A stretch of 64,000 nucleotides of DNA from Chloranthus sessilifolius (taxonomy: Eukaryota > Streptophyta > Magnoliopsida > Chloranthales > Chloranthaceae): positions 10,754,247 through 10,818,246 of the forward strand of contig CM037586.1 in NCBI GenBank assembly GCA_021018995.1. The letters are read 5' to 3'. The notes under the pieces are model-generated. The model was not told the origin of the DNA, searched no databases, and saw only the letters and a program-made list of their open reading frames with translations. The stretch's first letter is position 1. Each line of letters starts with the position of its first letter. Made by a program: the position numbers and the translations under genes. Positions 11,858-64,000 of the stretch are shown in pieces.

Positions 11858-14522
11858 TGTGACTCGGATTTCGGCACCCCGAAACCCGTGCCATCAGCAC
11901 GATCATCTTGACCGTGCCCCTGAACTATGCACGGAACACTGGTATATCAAGCATAAAAAGAAATAAGAACAACTTGCGGAATTTAAATCTAATTAGAAAT
12001 ACCTTTCAAAGGACAGTTCTACCCTCATGCCTCTGCATGAAGGGAGAACCGATCCGAACCATCGATGATATAAATCATCACAGATGGTTCGCCCCAAAGG
12101 AATAATCCAAACTCTATACATATACATGTTTTCACAAAATAAAGGCTTGACATACCAAGCCGTACAATCTCTACTCAAAACTCCTCAAAGTAGCACAACG
12201 GAGTCCTCTAGAAGAAGTCCTCGAGGTGGCTCCAACTCCTCGCATGAAGAAAGTCCGACTCATGGGATCGCCCCTCAAAACCTCGACCGCTACTAATGGA
12301 CTGTGACGATAGTCTATAGGGTGAGCTACATCCCAGCCCAATAGGGTACAAACACTGCTGAACATATAAGTTATAACTCACATATATTCTATGATATACC
12401 ATGCATGATGTAACTATGCAGTTGTTGATAAAACAGTTAAAAGCATTCGTTTACTGTTGATTTCTTATGTTTTCATTTACTCATGAAAAATGCTGAAAAG
12501 GCCTAAAGCAAAACTTAAACTTTCAACTTAAGTAATCCCCGAGCAATATAGCATCGAGCCCCGATGAGCTACCCTTCATCGTCATCTATATAGATAGTTT
12601 TAATGTATTCCCTGGGAATACCATATAGTACCCAAGCCCCTTTCCCCTGGGGATTGGTGGCGGGGTTTCACTTGTCTCAATCAACACCCCTGGGGTGTGC
12701 TTACTATGTACGGATAAGCCTCCGCACTGGCCTACGGTTTCGCCGCCGTATCGGTCACGGATATCCTGCCGTGTCAGTCGTGGATATCCCGCCACGTCGG
12801 AGGGGTAACCTAAGGAACCTCAAATAACAAAAATATCGGTGCCTTACATATAGTTATTCACCGTGTAAGTGTGCTATCTTATATCAGTTAGGCCCTATCA
12901 AACATGATTCAATCTGTGGATACATCCCTGGGATGTATCCATTAACTTGCATCACACCTGATGCTCTTATCTCTTTACTTCTTCATCCCCTGGGGATGGC
13001 TCATTCGTTTTCTCTTATGAATGTCACACACACACACTTTTCACAATTCTTTGAGCAGTAAAAATAATTGAATTGAAATTTATATCACTACATACATGCT
13101 CTTGTAAAATAAAGTACATGTTCAAGGTGTTCCCTACCTCAAGTCTTCACTTGTTCAATGCATCAAGGTCCCACGTGGCTCCTCGTGCACTAGCTCACAC
13201 GTACCACCTATGGTACCACACAGCATGTAAAACACATCACAAGGATGCAATAAAGAAGGTATAAGATCCTCCAAGAATCTTAAAGTCAAACCTAAAAGTC
13301 AACAAAATTTATCTCGATTAATGAAATCGAATCGATTAATCGAACTTGGTTCGATTAATCGATTTCAAAATCGATTAATCGAAGGTTAATATCGATTAAT
13401 CAAGTAATTTGATTAATCGAAATTCTCCTTTTCGCAAAGTCCATTTTCAGTCCGAACAGTCGAATTGTCATTCGATTAATCGAATTTTCGATTAATCGAA
13501 ATTCTTCTTTTCGCAAAGTAAACTCACTGTTCGAACAGTCGAGTTTCCGTGCGATTAATCGAATCCAGTTTCGATAAATCGAAATTCTTCTTCAAAAGTA
13601 CACCTCATTCGTCAGTTGAGTTTTCATTCGATTAATCGAATCGATTTGATTAATCGAATTTCTTCTTCGAAGGTACACCTCTGTTGAGCATTGAATTTCA
13701 TGTCGATTAATCGATCCCAAATCGATTAAAACTCAAATCGATTAATCGAAATCCCATTTCGATTAGTCGATTTTCAAATCATTTCCTCCAACCCTTGGGG
13801 TCCATCGAGGTTCAATGATTAATCGATTCTCAAATCGATTAATCGAATCAAATCGATTAATCGAATCCAATTCGATTAATCAAGTCGTAAATCTTCGACC
13901 TTTCAACTTCTGGCCAATTTCGATTAAACCCAATTTCGATTAATCGAAATTGTCGATTCACTTTTCGAGTTTTCCCAATCTTTTTCCCACACTTTTTCCT
14001 CTATTTTTCTAAGCCATTATCCTATGATCTAACCCACATTTAACCACAACTTAACCCCTATGATCTATGCATCTTATTTACAAAAATTTACCTTGGATAG
14101 ATCTCAAGTTGATTTCAAATCTAGGGTTGGAAGGCTAGGGGTTCGACTTTAGCTTTTTCAAATGGATCCTTGCGTTGAATCGGCCTCTTTAATACTTGGA
14201 TCCTTCCTTCCTCATAGCCTTTACTCCTTGCATTAATCACTCTTTTACTCTCTCTCTCTTACTCTCCTTCAACAACCCAAAATACCCATCTAGGGTTATT
14301 AAACCCTTTTATCCCTCTCTTAGTTTGTGTGTTGAGCACATGCACCTCAATAGGTATATGCGACTTCATATTTACAACACACACCACGAAATCACTCAAG
14401 CTATCACATCTCGTCCGTTCACCACATCCCATGCTAACTCTTGATCTCCTGATTGGTCAAACTTGTGACCAATCGGGCACCGCTCCCGAGGTCATAGTTT
14501 TGCGTGATTTTTGAGATATACA
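11858..14522 (-). repeat. Element A 3' LTR
   Basis: 2.67 kb direct partner of 22123-24801. Long stretches are identical, while the differences are clustered into short replacements and small length changes rather than scattered single substitutions (see findings). Confidence 0.9.
13312..13960. repeat. TCGATTAATCGA array in element A 3' LTR
   Basis: A 650 bp block with roughly two dozen exact or near copies of TCGATTAATCGA, separated by unrelated 10-40 bp spacers. Confidence 0.9.
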
Positions 14523-20100: not shown

Positions 20101-20620
20101 CCTCATCACGAGATCAAGGGCACGATGACGACCTCACCCTTGAAACCGAAATGATCTTCTTGTGTTGGGTCCGAAAATGACTACCTTGTTCTTGCAATCA
20201 ATGGTCGCACAATGTCATACCAACCACCCATGCCAAGGATCACATCAAACCCTTGCATGTCTAACAAAGATCAACTTTGCTTCCAATTCATGCACTTAAG
20301 TCTTGAATCGCTACAATGATGGATTTGCGTTAACTCCGTGTCGTGTCTACTAACTCTCCAAATGGAATAGACACGAGATAGGACGAAATCCAACGCTGAA
20401 CGATCTTCATCTTCTTAGCAAAACGTGGAGTGACGAATAATGAGTGGGTAGACCGGTCTATCAACACTCGGCGTCATGTCTAAATACACTTCCCTTTTCA
20501 TACATAGTTAAAGTACCTATAATATATATACACATACATACAGGAATTTACACATCAAAATGCACTCTCAGTTTATATTAAAAGAATCTACACTATTCCT
20601 AATGCATGCACCCTTTCCAT
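17131..20620 (-). pseudogene. Element A pol remnant (PR-RT-RH-INT, chromodomain-like tail)
   Basis: In sense order the parts are a retropepsin region near 20430-20465 (STHS), reverse transcriptase ([12 protein letters not shown], about 19770-19740; FVDDIL, near 19460), RNase H ([10 protein letters not shown], near 18850), integrase ([13 protein letters not shown], near 18360; PQTDGRQAG, near 17920) and a C-terminal segment (LVRWNNHPKEEATWE, near 17230) that matches the chromodomain of chromoviruses. The order places it in Ty3/Gypsy. Broken in several places. Confidence 0.85.
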
Positions 20621-22060
20621 CTAAAATTCTTTATGAAACGAAATTTTTTTTTTTTTTGTAATAAAATAAAATTTCTCACCTTGGATGACGTCGTGCACAT
20701 TCCCTGCTTCCTGAGCAGTGACTGCATAGGCTCTCCCCCTAACAATCGGCTTCCTTGCTTGAATGGGTCGTGGTGCTGTAACTGAAGCCGTCTTGCCCTT
20801 GTCTGTCTCGGGGCAATCCTTGATCATGTGGCCCACCTTGCCGCTACGAAAACAACCTCTAGTTCCGATTCTGCAGTCTATAGTCCTATGCGGCTTGCCA
20901 CATCTGGCACACGTCTCTCGAGGTGCGGAAGATACGGTACGAGAACCCTGTGTGATAGTGGCACCAGTAGACATGGCAGGGCTCTCATAGCGAATAGGTC
21001 TCCCCGACGCAAGTAATGGAAACCTCTGTTGGTGTTGCTGTTGCGCCGGCCTTCCAAAACCTCCCTGAAACTGCGGTCTCTGACTCTGACCCACGAACCT
21101 CGGCTTTTTATTCACCGGTTCGTAGTTCCCCATCCTTCCGTGGTCAAGTCCTCTCTGTTGCTCTCTCTGTCTATATCTGTTCGTGTTCTCCTCTTCTACA
21201 ACCAATGCTTTGCTCATGACCTCTTCATAGGTCCTCAGTTGAAATGGAGCTACGCCTCCCCTAACCTCAGGCTTCAAACCTTGCTGAAACCTCTTGGACT
21301 TCATCACTTCAGAAGCGACGTAATCCGGAGCAAAACGGGCAAGTCGTAGAAACTCTACCCCGTATTCTCTCACGGTCATTCTCCCTTGTACTAACTGCAA
21401 AAATTGTATCTCTAATTGGTTCCTCACCACTTAGGAAATATTGTTTGTTGAACTCCTCAACAAATTCCTCCCAAGTCGCAACTCTGGGGTTTCTGAGCGA
21501 GAGTCCTTATCACGGACTTCCACCAAGGCCCTCCCCATCCAACATGTAAGGCGCCCATCTTACACTCTCATCTTCCGTGCAAGTTAGCACGCTAAAAACT
21601 TTCTCCATTTCCATCCCAATTCTCGCCATTGCACTTTGCAGGAAAATGAAGGAGGTCTCATCCTTCTAAACTCATAAAAAGATGAGGGCACACGCAGTCC
21701 TAGGTGTGGTGTAGGTGGCTGTTTCTCTTGACGATGACGCAAAGGATCTTTGCTTGTTGAGCCATGGCACCTGCCATAGTCTCCATAGTGTGTATCATCC
21801 TTTGTCGTTCCTCTCTATCTTCTTGTCTTTCTCTCAATCTTTCTTGCACTCTTAGATCTTGATCCTGATGATCTCGATCCTCTTCCTCATGATGTTCCTC
21901 ATCGCCTCGGGCCTCGTTACCTCCTAAAGGCACTTTCTGTTGGTAGGAGAGATGAAATCATCTCCACTACGAAACTCCTTTGATGGCCTCCTCTTGCTCG
22001 GCCCCTCCCTCTAGCTGACATTGCGGCAGCATTTGAAACTAGAGTTTCGTTAGCAGAAGC
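20621..22060 (-). pseudogene. Element A gag remnant
   Basis: Readable stretches include a gag core (the 'LVQGRMTVREYGVEFLRLAR' region, about 21430 downward) and a CCHC zinc knuckle of the form CFRSGKVGHMIKDCPE near 20810-20860. A charged, Arg/Glu-rich segment lies near 21700-21933. Both are typical of Ty3/Gypsy capsid/nucleocapsid. Fossil copy. Confidence 0.8.
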
Positions 22061-22122: not shown

Positions 22123-24801
22123 TGTGACAGCCCGGTTTTTGGCACCCCGAAACCCGTGCCATCAGCACGATCATCTTGACCATGCCCCTTAACTCTACTG
22201 CAAACGGTATATCAAGCATAAAAGAAATAAGAACAACTTGAATTTAAATCTAATTAGAAATACCTTTCAAAGGATGTTCTACCCTCATGCCTCTGCATGA
22301 AGGGAGAGCCGATCCAAACCATCGATGATATAAATCATCACAGATGGTTCGCCCCAAAGGAATAATCCAAACTCTATACATATACATGTTTTCACAAAAT
22401 AAAGGCTTGACATACCAAGCCGCATAAATCTCTACTCAAAACTCCTCAAAGTAGCACAACGGAGTCCTCTAGAAGAAGTCCTCTGGAGGTGGCTCCAACT
22501 CCTCGCCGGCAGCAAAGTCCGACTCGCCGGGATCAGCGTCCCCTGAAACCTCGGCAGCTGCTACTAATGGACCTGCGACGTATAGTCTATAGGGTGAGCT
22601 ACATCCTAGCCCAATAGGGAACAAACACTGCTGAACATATAAGTTATAACTCACATATATTCTATGATATACCATGCATGATGTAACTATGTTGTTGATA
22701 AAACAGTTAAAAGCATTCGTTTTACTGTTGATTTCTTATGTTTTCATTTACTCATGAAAATGCTAAAAAGGCCTAAAGCAAAACTTAAACTTTCAACTTA
22801 AGTAATCCCCGAGCAATATAGCATCGAGCCCCGATGAGCTACCCTTCATCGTCATCTATATAGATAGTTTTAATGTATTCCACAGAATACCATATAGTAC
22901 CCAAGCCCCTTTCCACAGGGATTGGTGGCGGTTTCACTTGTCTCAATCAACACCCACAGGGTGTATTACTTACTATCGGATAAGCCTCACTTGCAGCCTA
23001 CGGTTTATGGCAGACGGTCACGGATATCCTGCCGTGTCAGTCGTGGATATCCCGCCACGTCGGAGGGGTAACCTAAGGAACCTCAAATAACAAAAATATC
23101 GGTGCCTTACATATAGTTATTCTCCGTGTAAATGTGCTATCTTATATCAAGTAGGCCCTATCATACATGGTTCAATGCGTGGATACATCCACAGGATGTA
23201 TCCATTAACTCATCACACTGATGCTCTTATCTCTTACTTCTTCATCCCGGGATGGCTCATTCGCTTTTCTCTTATGAATGTCACACACACACTTTTCACA
23301 ATTCTTTGAGCAGTAAAAATAATTGAATTGAAATTTATATCACTACATACATGCTCTTGTAAAATAAAGTACATGTTCAAGGTGTTCCCTACCTCAAGTC
23401 TTCACTTGTTCAATGCATCAAGGTCCCACGTCGCTCCTCGTGCACTAGCTCACACATACCACCTATGGTACCACACAGCAGGTAAACCACACCACAAGGG
23501 ACGCAATAAAGAAGGTATAAGATCCTCCAAGAATCTTAAAGTCAAACCTAAAAGTCAACAAAATTTATCCCAGTCGATTAATCGAAATCCAGAATCGATT
23601 AATCGAACTTGGTTCGATTAATCGATTTCCAAAATCGATTAATCGGTCAATATCGATTAATCAAGTAATTTCGATTAATCGAAATTCTCTTCAAAAGTCC
23701 ATTTTGATTCGAGCGATGAATTGTCATTCGATTAATCGAATGCATTTTGCCGATTAATCGAAATTCTTCTTTAAAAGTAAACTCTCTTGAGCGAGTTTCG
23801 ATTAATCGAATCCGATTTCGATTAATCGAAATTCTTCTTCATAAAGTACACCTCCGTTGAGCAGTTGAGTTTTCATTCGATTAATCGAATCCGGTTCGAT
23901 TAATCAATTTCTTCTTTTCAAGGTACACCTCTTTGTTGACGATTGAATTTCACAAGTCGATTAATCGATCCCAAATCGATTAATCGAAAACTCAAATCGA
24001 TTAATCAAATCCCATTTCGATTAGTCGATTTTCATAAATCATTTCCTCCAACCCTTGGGGTCCTTTGAGGTTCGATCGATTAATCGATTCTCAAATCGAT
24101 TAATCAAATCGATTAATCGAAATCCAATTCGATTAATCGAAGTCGTAATCTTCGACCTTTCAACTTCGGCCAATTTCGATTAATGAAACCCAATTTCGAT
24201 TAATCGAAATTGTCGATTCACCCTTTTCGAAATTTGTTCTTCCCAATCTTTTCCCACACTTTTCCTCTATTTTTCTAAGCCATTATCCTATGATCTAACC
24301 CACATTTAACCACAACTTAACCCCTATGATCTATGCATCTTATTTACAAAAATTTACCTTGGATAGATCTCAAGTTGATTTCAAATCTAGGGTTGGAAGG
24401 CTAGGGTTCCAGCTTTAGCTTTTTCAGCGGATCCCTTGCGTTGAATCGGCCTCTTTAATACTTGGATCCTTCCTTCCTCAGCTAGCCTTTACTCCTTGCA
24501 TTAATCACTCTTTTTACTCTCTCTCTCTCTTCTTTACTCTCCTTCAACAACCCAAAATACCCATCTAGGGTTATTAAACCCTTTTATCCCTCTCTTAGTT
24601 TGTGTGTTGAGCACATGCACCTCAATAGGTATATGCGACTTCATATTTACAACACACACCACGAAATCACTCAAGCTATCACATCTCGTCCGTTCACCAC
24701 ATCCCATGCTAACTCTTGATCTCCTGATTGGTCAAACTTGTGACCAATCGGGCACGGATCCCGAGGTCATAGTTTTGCGTGATTTTTTTCGGGCTATTAC
24801 A
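22123..24801 (-). repeat. Element A 5' LTR
   Basis: 2.68 kb. In sense order it holds a palindrome-rich block (24215-23569), a degenerate tandem 23-mer block (about 23065-22970), and a short reading frame with conserved end (22612-22469). It ends GGGCTGTCACA next to the primer-binding site. Confidence 0.9.
23569..24215. repeat. TCGATTAATCGA array in element A 5' LTR
   Basis: LTR partner of 13312-13960 with the same number and order of motifs. The spacers differ in small clustered changes. Confidence 0.9.
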
Positions 24802-48152: not shown

Positions 48153-48662
48153 AAATCAGACTTTTGTTGGGTTTTGCTTATGAGCTGCTTATAAATTGGA
48201 GTTAGGCTTCTGAACCCAATATTTTTACACTAATTGTGATATGTTGCATGTGTTTTGATCATACCTATGTTGAGCTGGACCTTAGGTTGATTATGGCTAA
48301 CTCGGATTAAGGAATCCGTAGATTTAATTTGCGTATGAGGTAGGGAATATTCTAAACTTGTACACTTGATTACGAAAGCATGTATGTAGTGATGTTCTAT
48401 GTATGCATGTCCGTTTAAAGCATAGTTAAGTGCTTATGTTTAAAATGCTAAGATACGTGTGTGAAATTAAGGTGTATGTGCGTACACGAAAATGAGAAAG
48501 TTAAAAGCATAAGAAAAAAGACATCCCAGGGATGTATAGTTAATGTGAATGTACATGTGATGGGAAAATTTTATGATGGGCTTTGAACTACTAATAATTA
48601 GCACAATTATACGGTGAATAACTATATATAGTGCACAATTAATTTAAGGTTTGGAGAATACC

Positions 48663-51207
48663 TGTAATATCCCAAAAATTTGAGCTTTAAACAGTGACCT
48701 TGAGATTCATGCCCGACTGGTCGTAGGTTTGACCAAGTGATGGTCAAACAGTGGACTCATGAAGTGATAAACTAATGTGATGTCAATGTGACCTAAGTAT
48801 AGAGTTAGAGTCTAGATAATGGTTACGTACACCTATCTCTGGTGTATGTGCTTAACACATAAGCTGGAAAGAGAATAAAAGGATTTAATAACCTAGGTTT
48901 CATTGTTTGGTTGGCAAAGAGAGTTAAGAAGAGAGATGGAGAGAGAGAGAGCCAAGGTGAGTTAATGGCAAGGAGTTAATGTGACTGGATTGAAGGGAAG
49001 ATTGAGCAATAAATGTCGGATTCAACATGATTTGATTCGTGGGAGCGAAAGCTGGAACCCTAACCATTCAAATCAATCGTTCAATCCTTTAGGAGATTGA
49101 TTTGAGGTGAGTTTTATTAGAATAAAATGCATAGATGTTTGGTGGTTAAATTCAGTCAAGTGTAGTTAAAAACATAGAATTAAATGATAGAAAAGAAAGA
49201 AAAATAGAGAAAAAAAGATTTAGAAGAACATCCCGAAAAGGGGCTGGGTTCTGGCCAAATCAATTAATCTAAAAGTTGAAAAAGCAAGAATGCCCGATTT
49301 CGATTAATCGATTTTGATAGTCGATTAATCGATTTAGAAATTGACTAATCAACTGGGTACCTTCAGTGGCTAGAGAGATAAGACTTGGGGAAATCAACTA
49401 ATCGATTTGGGGAATCGATTAATCGATTTTAGATTTTGATTAATCGATTTGGGATCGATTAATCGATTTTAGATTTTCGACTGCTCGATTTGAGAATTGA
49501 TTTAACCACTTTGGGGATTTCGATTAATCAATTTGGGATCGATTAATCGATTTTGGATTTCGATTAATCAATTTTGGGAATCGATTAATCGATTTAGGGT
49601 TCGATTAATCGATTTTGGGAATCGACTAATCGATTTTGGCAGTTTTACTTGACTTTTTAATTGAACCTTGAGGTTCATGGAGGGTCTAGGACCTTTTCTA
49701 TTACATTTTTAGTGATGTGTTGCATGTGTTATGGTGTACCATAAGTGATACGTGTGAGAGCAAACATAAGGAGCCGTGTGAGACCCTGATGCTTGAACCT
49801 TCAGAGACTTGAGGTAGGGAACACCTTGAACATGTACTTTAATTGCAAGAGCATGTATGTAGTGATATAGAAATTAATTTGAAAATATTTTAGCTATGTA
49901 AATCTTTATAATAAGGGTGTGTGTGTGACACCAAGAAAGTAAATGAGAATGAGACATCCCCAGGGGATGAGAAAGTGATAAAGGCATCAGTGTGATGCGA
50001 GTAATTGAGATCAAGTAAGCTAATGAAAATGAGGCATCCTGAGGGGATGAGAAAGTGATAAAGGCATCAATGTGATGCGAGTAATTTAGACATCCCAGGG
50101 ATGTTGGTAAGATTGAATAACGACTGATAAGGCCTAAATGATATAAAGTAGCACTTTTATACGGTGAATAACAACTATATGTAAAGCACATGATATTTTT
50201 GTTATTTAAGGTTTGAATAGAATACCCCACCAATGTGACGGGATACCCACGACTGACTCGATAGGATATCCGTGACCGGTATGGCAGCCAATCCGTACAC
50301 CGGTACGGAGGTTTATCCGTACACAGTAAGCACATCTCAGGGATATTGAGATGAGATTTAACCCCGCTGCCTATGAGAAAGGGGATTGGGTAGTATTCTC
50401 AGGGAATACATATAACGACTGTCTATTTAGACGACGATGGTGAGTATTCCATCGGGGCTCGATGCTATATTGCTCGGGGACTACTTAAGTTAAAGATTTA
50501 AGTTTTACTTTAGGCCTAATCAGTGTAATTCATGAACAGTTTGAGAATAAATGAAACATGCAAACCACCAGTAAACTTCAAGGCATAATTGTCACCTTTT
50601 AAACTATTTTTCCTGCCAATGTATAGACACATCATGCTTAGAATATCATAGAATATATGTGAGATTTTGACTTATATGTTCATTGTGTTATTCCCTATTC
50701 AGCTAGGATGTAGCTCGCCCTTTAGGCTATACGTCGTAGGTCCAATGCTACCAGCGGCCGAGGCTTCGGGAGATGTGGATCCGGGTGAATCGAATTACTT
50801 GCCTGGGGACGAGTTGTAGCCCCTTCATGAGGACTTCTTCTAGCAGACTCCGCTGAGTACTTTGAGAGAGTAGTTTTGAGAGCATAGTAGTACGGCTTGA
50901 TATGTCAAGCCTTTATTTTGATAGACAATGTAATTAATTGATATATTCTTTTTGGCGAACCATCTAGGGTGATCTGTTTATCACCGATGGTTCGGATCGG
51001 TTCTCTATTCATGCAATGGCATGAAAGTAGAACTGTCTTTTGAGTTTATACTTGGAATAGTGTTTTGCTTCTGCACCGTGTAGTTATTGTTCTATTTTGT
51101 CTTAATATTACTTGTTATACCAATATTTCGTACATAGCCATGGGGCACGGTCTAGAGGATCGTGCTGATGGCACGGGTTTTGAGGTGCCAAAATCCGGGC
51201 TGTCATA
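48663..51207 (+). repeat. Element B 5' LTR
   Basis: 2.55 kb, starting TGTAATATCCC. In order it holds a palindrome array (49296-49640), two direct units of about 80 bp with 'ggatgagaaagtgataaagg' (49954-50110), a tandem 23-mer block (50221-50325), and a short conserved reading frame (50700-50843). Confidence 0.92.
49296..49640. repeat. TCGATTAATCGA array in element B 5' LTR
   Basis: A dozen or so exact or near palindromes at offset about 640-975 from the LTR start. The 3' LTR copy is at 61352-61722. Confidence 0.9.
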
Positions 51208-54425: not shown

Positions 54426-54639
54426 AGATCCTACGCAGTCACAGCTCAAGAGGCTCAAAATATAAATGATGTGATCCAAGGTGAGATTCCTTTTAAATAA
54501 AGAATTTTAATTCTTGAAAATTTTAGATAGAGAAGATGCATCCATATAGAAAATAGAAAAGAACCTATATGTAATAATTTTTGTATGATGGTATATATTA
54601 TATATATGTGTATGTATGATTAGATACGCTACAGATCTA

Positions 54640-58298: not shown

Positions 58299-58746
58299 AA
58301 TCGATTAATCAATTTTCAAATCGATTAATCGATTGGATATTCGATTAATCGATTTTGGTCGATTGATCGACTGGCATACGCCAGTGAGTGGAGGTCGAAA
58401 GGAGATTCAGAAAATTAATAAAGTGTAATTTCGATTAATTGATTTGGGGATCGATTAATCGATTTTGGATTTCGATTAATCGATATTGGAATTCGATTAA
58501 TCGACTAACACATGTCAGCGACTTGGGAATTTTAGAAAAATTTAAGGATATTACGATTTCGATTAATCGAGGTGAAATTCGATTAATCGATTTGGTAAAT
58601 CGATTAATCGATTGGCACACGCCAGTGAGCTGGAAAAGTTGGAAATTTTTAAGGATCACGAATTCGATTAATAAATTTTGGAAATAGATTAATCGATTTC
58701 GCGTGGCTGGAGTAAGTTTTTAAAAATTGATTAATCGATTAATCGA
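58299..58746. repeat. Element B internal TCGATTAATCGA array
   Basis: More than ten copies of TCGATTAATCGA or near variants between pol and the additional ORF, the same position as 16573-17012 in element A. 'cacacgccagtgagctgg'-like spacers recur twice. Confidence 0.9.
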
Positions 58747-58993
58747 ATCGGGCCTATATATATATAAAATGAGGGGGATTTCTCCCCATTCAAAAAATTT
58801 TGGGTTTTCTTGTGCAGCTTTTTCCTCTTCCTCCTCGAACCACTGTGCACACTAGGGTTTTGGGGGGGATTTTGCACCGATTTTGCCTCGCAAGTATCGC
58901 GTACTTGGATCGAAACCTATGGTAAAACCTAGATTTCGAGTTTTCCTTTCAATTTGACCTATCAAACCCTACTTTTTGGCATTTTGAGTCAAA

Positions 58994-60436
58994 ATGCCGC
59001 CTCGAACTCGCTTGACCACGAAGCAAGCGGCTTCGAAGCTTCCGATACGGCGTAAGAACGCCGCACCGCCACCACCAACACCATCGCCCGTAAGAACCCC
59101 ATCCCCATCGTCATCGGATACCACATCCTGTTCGACGAGCGCGCCTTCGCACAAATCTTCACCTACACCACCACCACCTGTGAACTTGCTCCAACCAAAC
59201 GAGTGGTGGGCAGCTAAGGAATTCGAAGATGAGTACATCATTGACGAAGTCCTATTTACCTACCCGACAGTCGAGGGCGAGACCTAACACGGGTCTCGAC
59301 AGTACCTCCAAAAGGTGGGTCTCGATAGTCTTTTGAACCCATTACACGGGTCCTATTATCCTTGACTTGTATACCTGTTTTACCAAAGTTTAGAGAAGGG
59401 CCAAGTCGATGATACCGTCACGACCAAGATCGATGGTCGTAATTATACCTTCACCCGTCGCCATGTACACGAGTCGCTTGAGTGTTATTTGGATTTTGTG
59501 CCCGAGACCACCCTATTCCCACCTTTCACTGAGGGGGTCAAATTTGAGGACATTATCGCTGACATGACTAATGGGAAAAAGGGATCGGGAAAGTCGATAC
59601 GGAGGGTAGACCTACCTCCTTATATGTGGATGCTTGATTTTATTATCAAGTGTAATTTATACCCTATGCGCCATGACACCGAACACGTAGAATTGGTCCA
59701 ACAAGCCCTTTATGCAGCTTACTGTGGGCGTTGGTTCGATGCTGCCAAGCTTGTCATCAAAGGGATGACCTATATAAAGGGGAAGATGATGAAAGGTCCT
59801 TTAAGGCCCAAGGAGAAGATGCCTTATGCTTGCCTCATATCGAGCATGCTTGAATGTTACTTTGACGCCCAAGAGTATGTGATTTCGCCCCATGAGCAGA
59901 AAACTATGGACCACGTGAAACATTACTCCATCGCTTTGTGGGGTCGTAGCTATAGATTGTTGAAGAGAGCCCTACCAGTTCATGGGCCAGCAGTAGCACC
60001 ACCCCCACCCCCACCACTACAACAGGACCCGCCAGTAGGGGGAGAACCACCCGCCATTCCACCCACTGAGGGAGCCCCATCTCAGACCTCAGTACCAGCT
60101 GGGAGGCAGCCCATAGTGCAACCTCCTACCACGTTCACTACGCCACCGTCGCAGTCAGCGGCTACCACACCTACATCCTCATATCGCCGACGAGCGGCTC
60201 GCCCTGTGCCTACGATCGAGGACGTGTTGACCCGGATGGAGGCCAACAATCAACAGATGAATCGGCGCATGGACTTTCTGATGTACCACACCATGCAGTA
60301 CATCTATCCATTGGACTATCGAGCGCCTGTGCAGAGGAGGCGGATCGCGGCAAGACCGGTTTCCACTCGTACTGCTGCCGCAGACATCTGCTGTCGACGA
60401 TTCTGCTCGGTGCCACCACCACACCACCGGGACTAG
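58994..60436 (+). pseudogene. Element B additional ORF remnant (putative plant transposon protein type)
   Basis: Starts MPPRTRLTTKQAASKL, followed by a Pro/Ser-rich stretch and NEWWAAKEFEDEYIIDEVL. The second half (59489-60436) has DLPPYMWMLDFIIKCNLYPM, a Pro-rich linker, and RMEANNQQMNRRMDFLMYHT near the end, which could form a short coiled coil. Clearly homologous to 14830-16338 in element A. Not gag, pol or a recognisable envelope. Function unknown; fossil copy. Confidence 0.75.
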
Positions 60437-60755: not shown

Positions 60756-61351
60756 TGTAATATCCCAAAAATTTGAGCGTTAAATAGTGACCTCAAGATC
60801 CGTGCCCGACTGGTCGTAGGTTTGACTAAGTGATGGTCAAATAGTGGACTCATGAAGTGATAAATTAATGTGATGTCAATGTGACCTAAGTATATAGTTA
60901 GAGTCTAGTTAATGGTCACGTACACCTATCTCTGGTGTATGTGTGCTTAACACACAAGCTGGAAAGAGGATAAAAGAGTTTAATAACCTAGGTTTCATTG
61001 TTTGGTTGGTAAAGAGAGTTAAGAAGAGAGATAGAGAGAGAGAGCCAAGGTGAGTTAATGGCAAGGAGTTAATGTGGCTGGATTGAAGGGAAGATTGAGC
61101 AATAAATGCCGAATTCAACGTGATTGGATTCGTGGGAGCCAAAGCTAGAACCCTAACCATTCAAATCAACTATTCAATCCTTTAGGAGATTGATTTGAGG
61201 TGAGTTTTATTAGAATAAAATACATAGATGTTTGGTGGTTAAATTCAGTCAAGTGTAGTTAAAAACATAGAATTAAATAATAGAAAAGAAAGAAAAATAG
61301 AGAGAAAAAGATTTAGAAGAACAGCCAGAAAAGGGGCTGGGTTCTGGCCAA

Positions 61352-61722
61352 ATCGATTAATCGATTTTGGTCTAGAAGTTGAAAAAGCAAGAATGCCCAA
61401 TTTCGATTAATCAATCTTGAAATCGATTAATCGATTTTGATAGTCGATTAATTAATTTAGAAATCGACTAATCGACTAGGTACCTCCAGTGGCCGGAGAG
61501 ATAAGACTTGGGGAAATCGACTAATTGATTTGGGGAATCGATTAATCGATTTTGGATTTTCGACTGCTCGATTTGATAATCGATTTAACCATTTTGGGGA
61601 TTTTGATTAATCGATTTGGGATCGATTAATCGATTTTGGATATCGATTAATCGATTTTGGAAATCTATTAATCGATTTAGGGTTCGATTAATCGATTTTG
61701 GGAATCGATTAATCGATTTTGG
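61352..61722. repeat. TCGATTAATCGA array in element B 3' LTR
   Basis: Collinear with 49296-49640. Several motifs that are degenerate in one LTR are exact in the other. Confidence 0.9.
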
Positions 61723-62301
61723 TAGTTTCACTTGACTTTTTAATTGGACCTTGAGGTTCATGGAGGGTCTAAGACCTTCTCTATTGCATCTTTAGTGATG
61801 TGTTGCATATGTTATGATTTACCATAGGTGGTACGTCTGAGAGCAAGCATAAGGAGCTGCGTGGGACCCCTGATGGTTGAACCTTCAGAGACTTGAGGTA
61901 GGGAATACCTTGAACATGTACTTTAATTGCATGAGCATGTATGTAGTGATATAGAAATCAATTTGAAAATATTTTAACTGTGTAAATCTTTATAAAATGG
62001 GTGTGTGTGTGACACCAAAAAAGTAAATAAGAATGAGACATCCTCAGGGGATGAGAAAGTGATAAAGGCATTAGTGTGATATGAATAACTGAGACCAAGT
62101 AAGCTAATGAAAATGAGGCATCCCCAGGGGATGAGAAAGTGGTAAAGGCATCAATATGATGCGAGTAATTTAGACATCCTAGGGATATTGTTAAGATTGA
62201 ATAATGGCTGATAAAGCCTAACTAATATAAAGTAGCACTTTTACACGGTGAATAATTATATGTAAAATACATAATATTTTTGTTATTTAAGGTTTGAGTA
62301 G

Positions 62302-62405
62302 AATACCCTACCGACGTGGCGGGATACCTACAACTGACTCGGCAGGATATCCGTGACCGGTATGGCGGCCAATCCATACACTGGTACGGAGGTTTATCCG
62401 TACAC
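62302..62405 (+). repeat. Degenerate tandem 23-mers in element B LTR
   Basis: About 4.5 units of the type GATATCCGTGACCGGTATGG(C)GG. Matching blocks are at 50221-50325 (B 5' LTR), 12705-12800 and 22970-23065 (A, inverted), 46388-46448 (D) and 63294-63345 (C). Confidence 0.7.
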
Positions 62406-62780
62406 AATAAGCACATCCCAGGGATGTTGAGATGAGATTTAACCCCGCCGCTTATAAGAAAGGGGCTTGAGTAGTAGTCCCAGGAAATGCATATAACAAC
62501 TGTCTATTTAGACGACGATGGTGGGTATTCCATCGGGGCTCGATGCTATATTACTTAGGGACTACTTAAGTTGAAGATTTCAGTTTTGCTTTAGGCCTAA
62601 TTAGTGTAATTCATGAATAGTTTGAGAATAAATGAAACATGCAAACCACCAGTAAACTTTAAGGCATAATTGCCATCTTTTAAACTATTTTTCCTACAAA
62701 TGTATAGACACATCATGCTTAACATATCATGGAATATATGTGAGATTTTTACTTATATATTCATTGTGTTGTTACCTATT

Positions 62781-62924
62781 GAGCTAGGATGTAGCTCACC
62801 CTTTAGACAATACGTAGCAGGTCTAGTGCTAGCAGCGGCCGAGGCTTCGGGAGATGTGGATCCGGGTAATTCAGACTACGTGCCTGGGGACGAGTTGGAG
62901 TCCCCTCCTGAGGACTTCTTCTAG
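62781..62924 (+). other. Conserved short reading frame in Gypsy LTRs
   Basis: About 47 codons reading ELGCSSPFRQYVAG, then AAAEASGDVDPG and DELESPPEDFF followed by TAG. The same frame is recognisable at 50700-50843 (B 5' LTR), 22469-22612 on the minus strand (A 5' LTR: SDFAAGEELEPPPEDFF) and 63699-63837 (C: SDYVPMEESEPLPEEFF). Many base differences between copies fall at third codon positions. It could be a small LTR-encoded peptide, a leader uORF or the last exon of a spliced product; function unknown. Confidence 0.5.
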
Positions 62925-64000
62925 GAGACTCCGCTAAGTACTTTGAGAGAGTAGTTTTGAGAGTATATTGATACGGCTTGGTATGTTAAGCCTTTATTTT
63001 GATAGACAATGTAATTAATTGATATATTCTTTTTGGCGAACCATCTGGGGTGATCTGTTTATCACCGATAGTTCGGATCGATTCTCTGTTCATGCAGTGG
63101 CATGAAAGTAGAACTGTCTTTTAAGTTTATACTTGGAATAGTATTTTACTTTCGCACCATGTAGTTATTGTTCTATTTTGTCTTAATATTGCTTGTTATA
63201 CTAATGTTTCGTATATAGCCATGGGGCACGATCTAGAGGATCATGCTGATGGCACGAGTTTCGAGGTGCTAAAATTTAGGCTGTCACAATACCCCACCGA
63301 TGAGGCGGTATACCCGTGACTGGTATGGCGACCAATCAGTATATCAGCAGACATCCCAGGGATGTATATGAGTTATGTGCCCCGTTGCCTATGAGAAAGG
63401 GACTTGAGTTATATTGCGTGAAAAATAATCTGATTGGACGACGATGGAGGGTATTCTATCAGGGCTCGATGCTATATTGCTCGAAGATTATTTAAGTTAA
63501 ATTGATTTAAGTCATGAGACCAGCCCAGTTGTAATATGAGAACCAATTGAGCATGAGATGACATGTGTAGTGTAGCAATTGCATTATGTTCATTCTTTTA
63601 GTATATCTAACTGTTTTATATTGATAAAATCATGCTTCAATTTTGTCATGAAATGTATGTGAGTAAGATAGATTTACTTGTTCAGATATTTTTCCTATTG
63701 AGCTAGGATGTAGCTCACCCTTTTGACTATACGTCACAAGTTCTGAGATAGTGGCTGCATCTGGTGACAGCGATCTCGAGGACTCGGATTACGTTCCTAT
63801 GGAGGAGTCTGAGCCCCTTCCTGAGGAGTTTTTTTAGAAGACCCTCTGTGCACTTTGATAGTTGTTTTGAAAGATTATACGGCTTGGTATGTCCAGCCAT
63901 TGTTTCAGGATAATATAATCATATGAAATATTCTTTTGTCAAACCATCTGAGGTGACCGTTTTTACGTCACTGATGGTTCGGGTTGGTTCTTTTACCCAT

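Follow-up and report, generated by a model that had tools for sequence, protein, structure and literature searches.

The long terminal repeats (LTRs) of a Ty3/Gypsy retrotransposon family in Chloranthus sessilifolius hold a short segment for which coding constraint is well supported. The family was studied in a 64,000-nucleotide (nt) stretch of the genome (assembly GCA_021018995.1, contig CM037586.1, positions 10,754,247 to 10,818,246 of the forward strand; hereafter the window), where three lineages are represented by elements A and B and by an LTR fragment, C, and in all three the final stretch before a TAG stop, 34 codons long (32 in C), very probably evolved as protein. LTRs are usually regarded as non-coding control DNA. 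We consider this segment a likely 3'-terminal coding exon, and we see an even chance that it closes the coding sequence of a spliced chromovirus mRNA, as an exon placed inside the LTR and joined to a donor at the end of gag. The segment and the site at which it begins are as follows.

62821..62924, forward strand: proposed 3'-terminal coding exon in the 3' LTR of B; 34 residues including a split first codon, then TAG; phase 1; third-position excess between lineages
22469..22572, reverse strand: exon copy in the 5' LTR of A, TAG included
63740..63837, forward strand: corresponding stretch of LTR fragment C, shorter by two codons; ends in TAG (63835-63837), with a TGA in frame upstream at 63724-63726; the position homologous to the acceptor AG is AA (63738-63739)
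62795..62820, forward strand: proposed 3' splice-site region of B; CTCAC (62795-62799) precedes CAG|GT by about 22 nt, within the stretch read as LGCSSP (branch-point reading by eye)

The original prediction, made from the letters of the window, held that the LTRs of A, B and C share a reading frame that runs from the residues LGCSSP to a conserved acidic end. Such a frame is present: positions 62781-62924 are the final 47 codons and TAG of a longer open stretch in the B 3' LTR, the A counterpart occupies 22612-22472 on the reverse strand (stop at 22471-22469), and the C counterpart (63700-63837, forward strand) reads alike except for an internal TGA. The frame and the coding pattern in its last codons stand, while its 5' part, LGCSSP, had been misread. 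Nor do all A LTRs carry the frame, as the second A LTR (from 12339 downward, reverse strand) is frameshifted here.

Coding constraint between lineages

Rates were compared between A, 31 copies of B (two from the window and 29 fetched by DNA similarity from the 2.17 Gb assembly) and seven copies of C (six fetched); 48 A loci (L061-L108) that came from or after a protein search were kept out of the rate tests, since a protein search of this kind is biased towards intact frames. Between A and the 31 B copies, fixed differences in codons 14-47 number 2 at first, 4 at second and 14 at third codon positions, out of 34 sites each, which agrees with the earlier statement that A and B differ mostly at third positions. 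Under a slightly looser rule that also took in the C copies, the counts at positions 1/2/3 are 3/4/16 of 34 for A-B, 4/7/18 of 32 for A-C and 2/4/15 of 32 for B-C, and the Fisher p-values for the third-position excess (6e-5, 1.3e-4 and 6e-5, respectively) come from pairs that share branches and are not independent. Random relocation of the same substitutions gave fewer synonymous changes on average in 13/13 copy pairs tested (p 0.0005-0.0135), a subset of the possible pairs in which A2 was set against six B and four C copies and L002 against three C copies; two gapped copies of the 31 B were omitted from this test only. When changes are assigned to lineages, positions 1/2/3 receive 2/3/6 in A, 0/0/3 in B and 1/4/6 in C, with 0/0/5 sites at which all three differ.

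The original prediction had also proposed that codon-position rates be set against other LTR sequence. In a scan of the A-B LTR alignment with 390 overlapping 90-nt windows (those scored had enough aligned sites and at least 6 differences), the top two codon periodicities start at 62833 and 62827, on the exon; the best window off the exon (63193-63282; 9 differences, other phase) ranks third. The sense frame is open in 27/29 gap-free B copies, in the one A copy and in 7/7 C copies, and the other two sense frames are open in 1/37 and 0/37 copies. An antisense product was rejected: the antisense frame with its wobble on sense third positions is open in 0/29 gap-free B, 1/1 A and 1/7 C copies, and another antisense frame (wobble on sense second positions; open in 26/29 B, 1/1 A and 4/7 C copies) would not yield a third-position excess. 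No protein homologue of the A peptide was found, and no candidate shared three words with it, in a database that we guess to be poor in plant proteins.

Within the B lineage, singleton changes in the exon comprise 10 synonymous and 24 nonsynonymous changes (two of them stops), where 29.6% would be synonymous without constraint; among alleles found in two or more copies, 13/27 are synonymous vs. 33.9% expected, and among those in three or more, 9/18. Because the synonymous share of the singletons matches the no-constraint expectation, old copies are taken to be in neutral decay since their insertion, and selection therefore acted on the active lineages. Coding selection during the activity of the family, as earlier proposed, is thus retained. 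The check suggested with it, i.e., the ratio of nonsynonymous to synonymous rates (dN/dS) across many copies, with a value near 1 as refutation, would mislead, since changes gained after insertion, such as the B singletons, are neutral, yet constraint is visible between lineages.

A candidate 3' splice site at the start of the segment

The coding pattern begins at an AG|GT (B 62820|62821). Third-position A-B differences shift from 0/13 before the AG to 14/34 after it, and the only A-B differences in codons 1-13, the LGCSSP stretch, are at two second positions, a conservation of nucleotide type. The 39 nt directly upstream of the exon are nearly invariant, and the claim that nearby LTR sequence is far more diverged does not hold uniformly. 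The frame was also described as continuous in all three lineages, whereas C has a TGA after LGCSSPF and before the AG in the window copy, in 5/7 C copies read and in 33/34 genome matches to one exact pattern in which that base was left open; in the exon frame, 5/6 fetched C copies have a stop four codons ahead of the acceptor. The acceptor AG itself is present in 31/31 B copies, 31/31 A copies (29 of these nearly identical) and 5/6 fetched C copies; window duplicates L001 and L031 were omitted from these counts and from the ATG counts given below.

LGCSSP as protein was rejected on the absence of third-position A-B differences and the in-frame TGA in C. Because of this third-position invariance, the stops in C, the presence of the AG and the branch-point-like CTCAC, LGCSSP is instead read as the translated shadow of a putative 3' splice site. 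Likewise, it is because the coding pattern starts at AG|GT after the branch-point-like CTCAC that a 3'-terminal coding exon appears likely. Among the interpretations first offered for the frame (a peptide, an upstream open reading frame or a 3'-terminal exon), the last is the best, with a coding part that is shorter than was supposed and runs from the AG|GT rather than from LGCSSP.

The gag donor and a probable gag-protease intron

The strongest donor at the same aligned place in A and B is AAG|GTGAGA (A 20679, B 54481), at the gag/protease junction, where it comes after a pair of CCHC-like knuckles recognised by eye, the second of them degenerate in A. Its phase is 1 both in A and, read in the matching peptide frame, in B; the LTR exon requires this phase too. 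The features around this junction are listed below.

20680..21430, reverse strand: gag reading frame of A, from the start of the stop-to-stop open reading frame (ORF) to the donor; Pfam Retrotrans_gag; AAG|GTGAGA, first intron base 20679, phase 1
20517..20679, reverse strand: proposed gag-protease intron of A, 163 nt; the protease exon would start at 20516
54481..54623, forward strand: proposed gag-protease intron of B, 143 nt; donor 54480|54481, phase 1; the protease exon would start at 54624

Because acceptors 143 and 163 nt on continue a protease-like frame, A and B probably share a gag-protease intron, here predicted from sequence. In B, the acceptor 143 nt on is in the same phase and opens into the protease frame; in A, a decayed copy, the acceptor 163 nt on leads into some 15 residues of like peptide and then stops. 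Related elements are not known to be interrupted at the gag-protease junction. Unspliced sequence meets a stop soon after gag.

When the gag donor is joined conceptually to the LTR acceptor, the frame is open in A and B over the joined stretches and reads the end of Gag, an acidic tail (in A, 10 acidic and 0 basic of 34 residues) and TAG. Two marks of a Gag-only RNA are found in both elements, i.e., a conserved, donor-like site at or near the gag end and, by the conceptual junction, an acceptor that gives an early stop after gag. Of the other aligned A-B donors listed, A 20836/B 52548 (with no separate phase computation for B 52548) and B 59090 are in phase 0 and B 55575 is in phase 2, which leaves the gag donor as the only one listed in phase 1.

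In the genome, the A donor 22-mer has 291 exact copies, and 18/39 LTR frames on contigs C1-C4, the window's A included, have a same-strand donor at one-element distance, as counted over the first 100 donor places listed and over 39 frames from 150 scored A-peptide matches. In 13 of these 18 the donor lies about 8.3-8.7 kilobases (kb) upstream, and in five, window A among them, about 1.8-1.9 kb downstream. Donor and exon travel together, a co-occurrence that does not establish splicing.

A tentative model for Gag expression

Our best current guess at the exon's partner is gag, a choice in which our confidence is about evenly balanced. On this basis we advance, tentatively and with confidence just short of even, a model in which the LTR also serves as a coding exon. 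Here the 3' LTR would provide the selected acidic C-terminus and the stop of a Gag isoform through a splice of about 8.4 kb that shares the Gag-Pol donor, so that this donor would set the Gag:Gag-Pol ratio; the 5' LTR would carry an idle exon, because LTRs are copies of each other.

The transcript would start in the 5' LTR and extend into the 3' LTR, and the gag-end donor AAG|GTGAGA would be used in two ways. A short splice to the acceptor 143-163 nt away would give Gag-Pol. A long splice to the CAG|GT of the 3' LTR, with about 8.4 kb excised, would give a short mRNA for Gag alone plus a tail of about 34 residues, and the position of the stop codon in the last exon would spare this mRNA nonsense-mediated decay. 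The acidic tail may alter assembly or RNA binding, or may serve the export of unspliced RNA in the manner of the Cer1 protein CERV (see below). Splicing itself, the partnership with gag and the function of the tail are what we infer beyond the constraint, its approximate start, the conserved donor and the matching phases.

Several points weigh against this reading. The gag-protease intron alone suffices to explain why the donor is conserved, and the link to the LTR therefore rests on the phase agreement, which would arise by chance in 1 case in 3, and on the exclusion of other donors, which was made in two decayed copies with a donor score that is a simple consensus count. On the acceptor side, the copies used for the AG count were located by a motif containing the AG, which favours its detection; the window C copy (with AA instead) and L109 lack the acceptor AG; and the pyrimidine tract ahead of it is poor. 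Further, an upstream in-frame ATG without a stop exists in 28/31 B and 30/31 A copies, so that unspliced translation may occur in these two lineages, and so few changes are specific to C that they cannot by themselves demonstrate constraint on that branch.

Alternative readings

A 3'-terminal exon could have a partner other than gag, namely pol, the extra 3' ORF or a leader exon. The support for an exon start at the AG stands independent of gag, and the elements do carry a further 3' ORF, preceded in B by a TATA-like stretch. However, among the aligned A-B donors none near the pol end is strong in both elements, the donor where the 3' ORF begins (A 16248/B 59090) is less strong in B, in which its phase is 0, and no in-phase donor was seen by eye where A and B cease to be similar in the 3' ORF, although donors misplaced by the alignment would escape this comparison. 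We regard such a partner as unlikely.

The extra 3' ORF occupies 58994-60436 in B, where it has a Transposase_32 match below the Pfam cut-off, and its relative in A (16244-14997) is 62% identical over 174 residues in one piece. A TATATATATATAA stretch at 58755-58768 precedes the B ORF, as though the ORF had a promoter to itself. Among 3,598 candidate homologues of the B ORF, none reached E <= 0.001 in the database, which we again guess to be poor in plant proteins.

Partners within the LTR were also tried and rejected: for an upstream coding exon, no upstream window ranks with the exon in the periodicity scan, and splicing from either of two donor-like LTR sites would create an in-frame TGA at the junction, for one site in both elements and for the other in B alone. 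By eye, the intervals 60967-61200 and 61829-61900 hold a TATA-like GATAAAAG and then two donor-like sites (TTTGAG|GTGAGT in B and CCAAG|GTAAAT in A; ACTTGAG|GTAGGG in both), an arrangement suggesting a spliced 5' leader.

The segment could instead end an upstream ORF in the 5' leader, in which unspliced translation from an LTR AUG would run into a conserved acidic end that controls gag translation. The upstream ATGs of B and A speak for this, but an in-frame ATG is found in 0/6 fetched C copies and the TGA interrupts the frame in nearly all C matches, so that a stop-free in-frame AUG is not present in every lineage and fails in C. Homologous upstream DNA also lies in different registers in A and B (by eye), and upstream LTR sequence does not rank with the exon for codon periodicity. 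With these points against it, we hold this reading to be doubtful.

That no protein is involved, and that a nucleotide-level element (a splice or RNA signal) changes in a way that mimics codon periodicity, would fit the nucleotide conservation of the adjoining 39 nt, the conserved hairpin that the LTR also has and the little that the C branch shows alone, but is improbable given the same phase in three lineage pairs, a length change in C of 6 nt as aligned and a common stop position.

Comparison with known systems

Coding within a 3' LTR has retroviral precedents. The superantigen of mouse mammary tumour virus and Nef of human immunodeficiency virus are encoded wholly or partly there, in AUG-initiated ORFs, and the proposed exon shares 3' LTR coding with them by description, sequence comparison aside. 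The reports cited below are drawn upon as far as their accessible excerpts go.

In BARE1, a Gag-only RNA is made by splicing that removes 104 nt and places a stop three residues past Gag (PMC3735527), and a review ascribes spliced Gag-only RNAs to EVD and others (PMC12786077). As in BARE1 and EVD/copia, a splice at or near the gag end would here give a Gag-only mRNA that ends soon after the junction, in the present case as a prediction; unlike in these Ty1/Copia elements, as the excerpts describe them, the last exon proposed here is part of the 3' LTR and would extend Gag by about 34 conserved residues. Two sunflower elements produce short GAG isoforms via splicing and early termination (PMC7730604). 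Like Ogre and other plant Gypsy elements with introns, the family would be a Ty3/Gypsy with an intron between parts of the polyprotein; unlike for the present family, no LTR exon is mentioned for those in the excerpts (PMC6317226, PMC3735527).

A further likeness is to Cer1 of Caenorhabditis elegans, a Gypsy-type element whose CERV protein arises when gag-frame exons are joined by splicing to a distant 3' exon and acts in the export of unspliced Cer1 RNA (PMC10309623); here, too, an extra protein from one or more gag-frame exons and a distant 3' exon is proposed. Extra coding capacity is familiar from the extra or additional ORFs (eORFs, aORFs) of plant LTR retrotransposons, in Tekay and other lineages (PMC6317226, PMC11728184), with aORFs of Tekay and Athila elements in sunflower (PMC11728184) and of Retand elsewhere (PMC11963269). 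One survey of plant elements considered, in the part available, extra ORFs of at least 250 codons (PMC6317226), and a 34-codon LTR exon would escape it. We found no description of an LTR-encoded exon in plant Ty3/Gypsy elements in what was mainly open-licence literature, covered by titles and abstract openings.

If true, the model would add a mode of Gag expression not found described for Ty3/Gypsy, in an abundant family, and would make the Gag/Pol balance of these elements directly testable with RNA data. It would also matter for work that treats LTRs as neutral clocks.

Elements A, B and C and other conserved LTR features

Elements A and B are Ty3/Gypsy, and C is present in the window as an LTR fragment. 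Their LTRs, with approximate outer limits where stated, are as follows.

60760..63286, forward strand: 3' LTR of B, outer limits approximate; 88.9% identical to 48645-51205
48663..51205, forward strand: 5' LTR of B, outer limits approximate; holds its own exon copy
22133..24787, reverse strand: 5' LTR of A, outer limits approximate; 91.1% identical to 11865-14512
11865..14512, reverse strand: 3' LTR of A, exon frame broken in this copy

Over the pieces of the two elements, Pfam matches are to Retrotrans_gag and Chromo in A (the latter barely above the cut-off), to RVP_2, RVT_1 and Integrase_H2C2 in B, and to RNase H and SH3_Tf2-1 in both. Gag, protease, reverse transcriptase, RNase H, integrase and a chromodomain, as expected of a chromovirus, are all found, scattered over the A and B pieces. 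The family is presumably a Tekay-like chromovirus, a clade name based on the chromodomain, the long LTRs and, in part, sequence hallmarks. Element A is young in this assembly, because the 39 other matches listed (40 of 2,597 first-look candidates were scored) are all at 100% (rounded) over 224 bases. The family is abundant, with 25,632 first-look candidates in the A peptide search, 150 of which were scored.

Between the exon and the LTR end, a hairpin at 63037-63076 (CGAACCATC...GATGGTTCG) is conserved in all three lineages, and its upper stem shows paired changes (GGTGAT/ATCACC in B, GATGAT/ATCATC in A, GGTGAC/GTCACT in C); allowing up to two errors per arm, it was matched in 56/60 scanned loci, two of which are window copies. 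An LTR block around GGGCTCGATGCTATATTGCTCG (62500-62575) is also highly conserved in the three lineages. An array of ATCGATTAATCGATT-type units lies within the LTR at 61340-61740 and varies in length between A and B, and similar units occur between pol and the extra ORF at 58300-58740.
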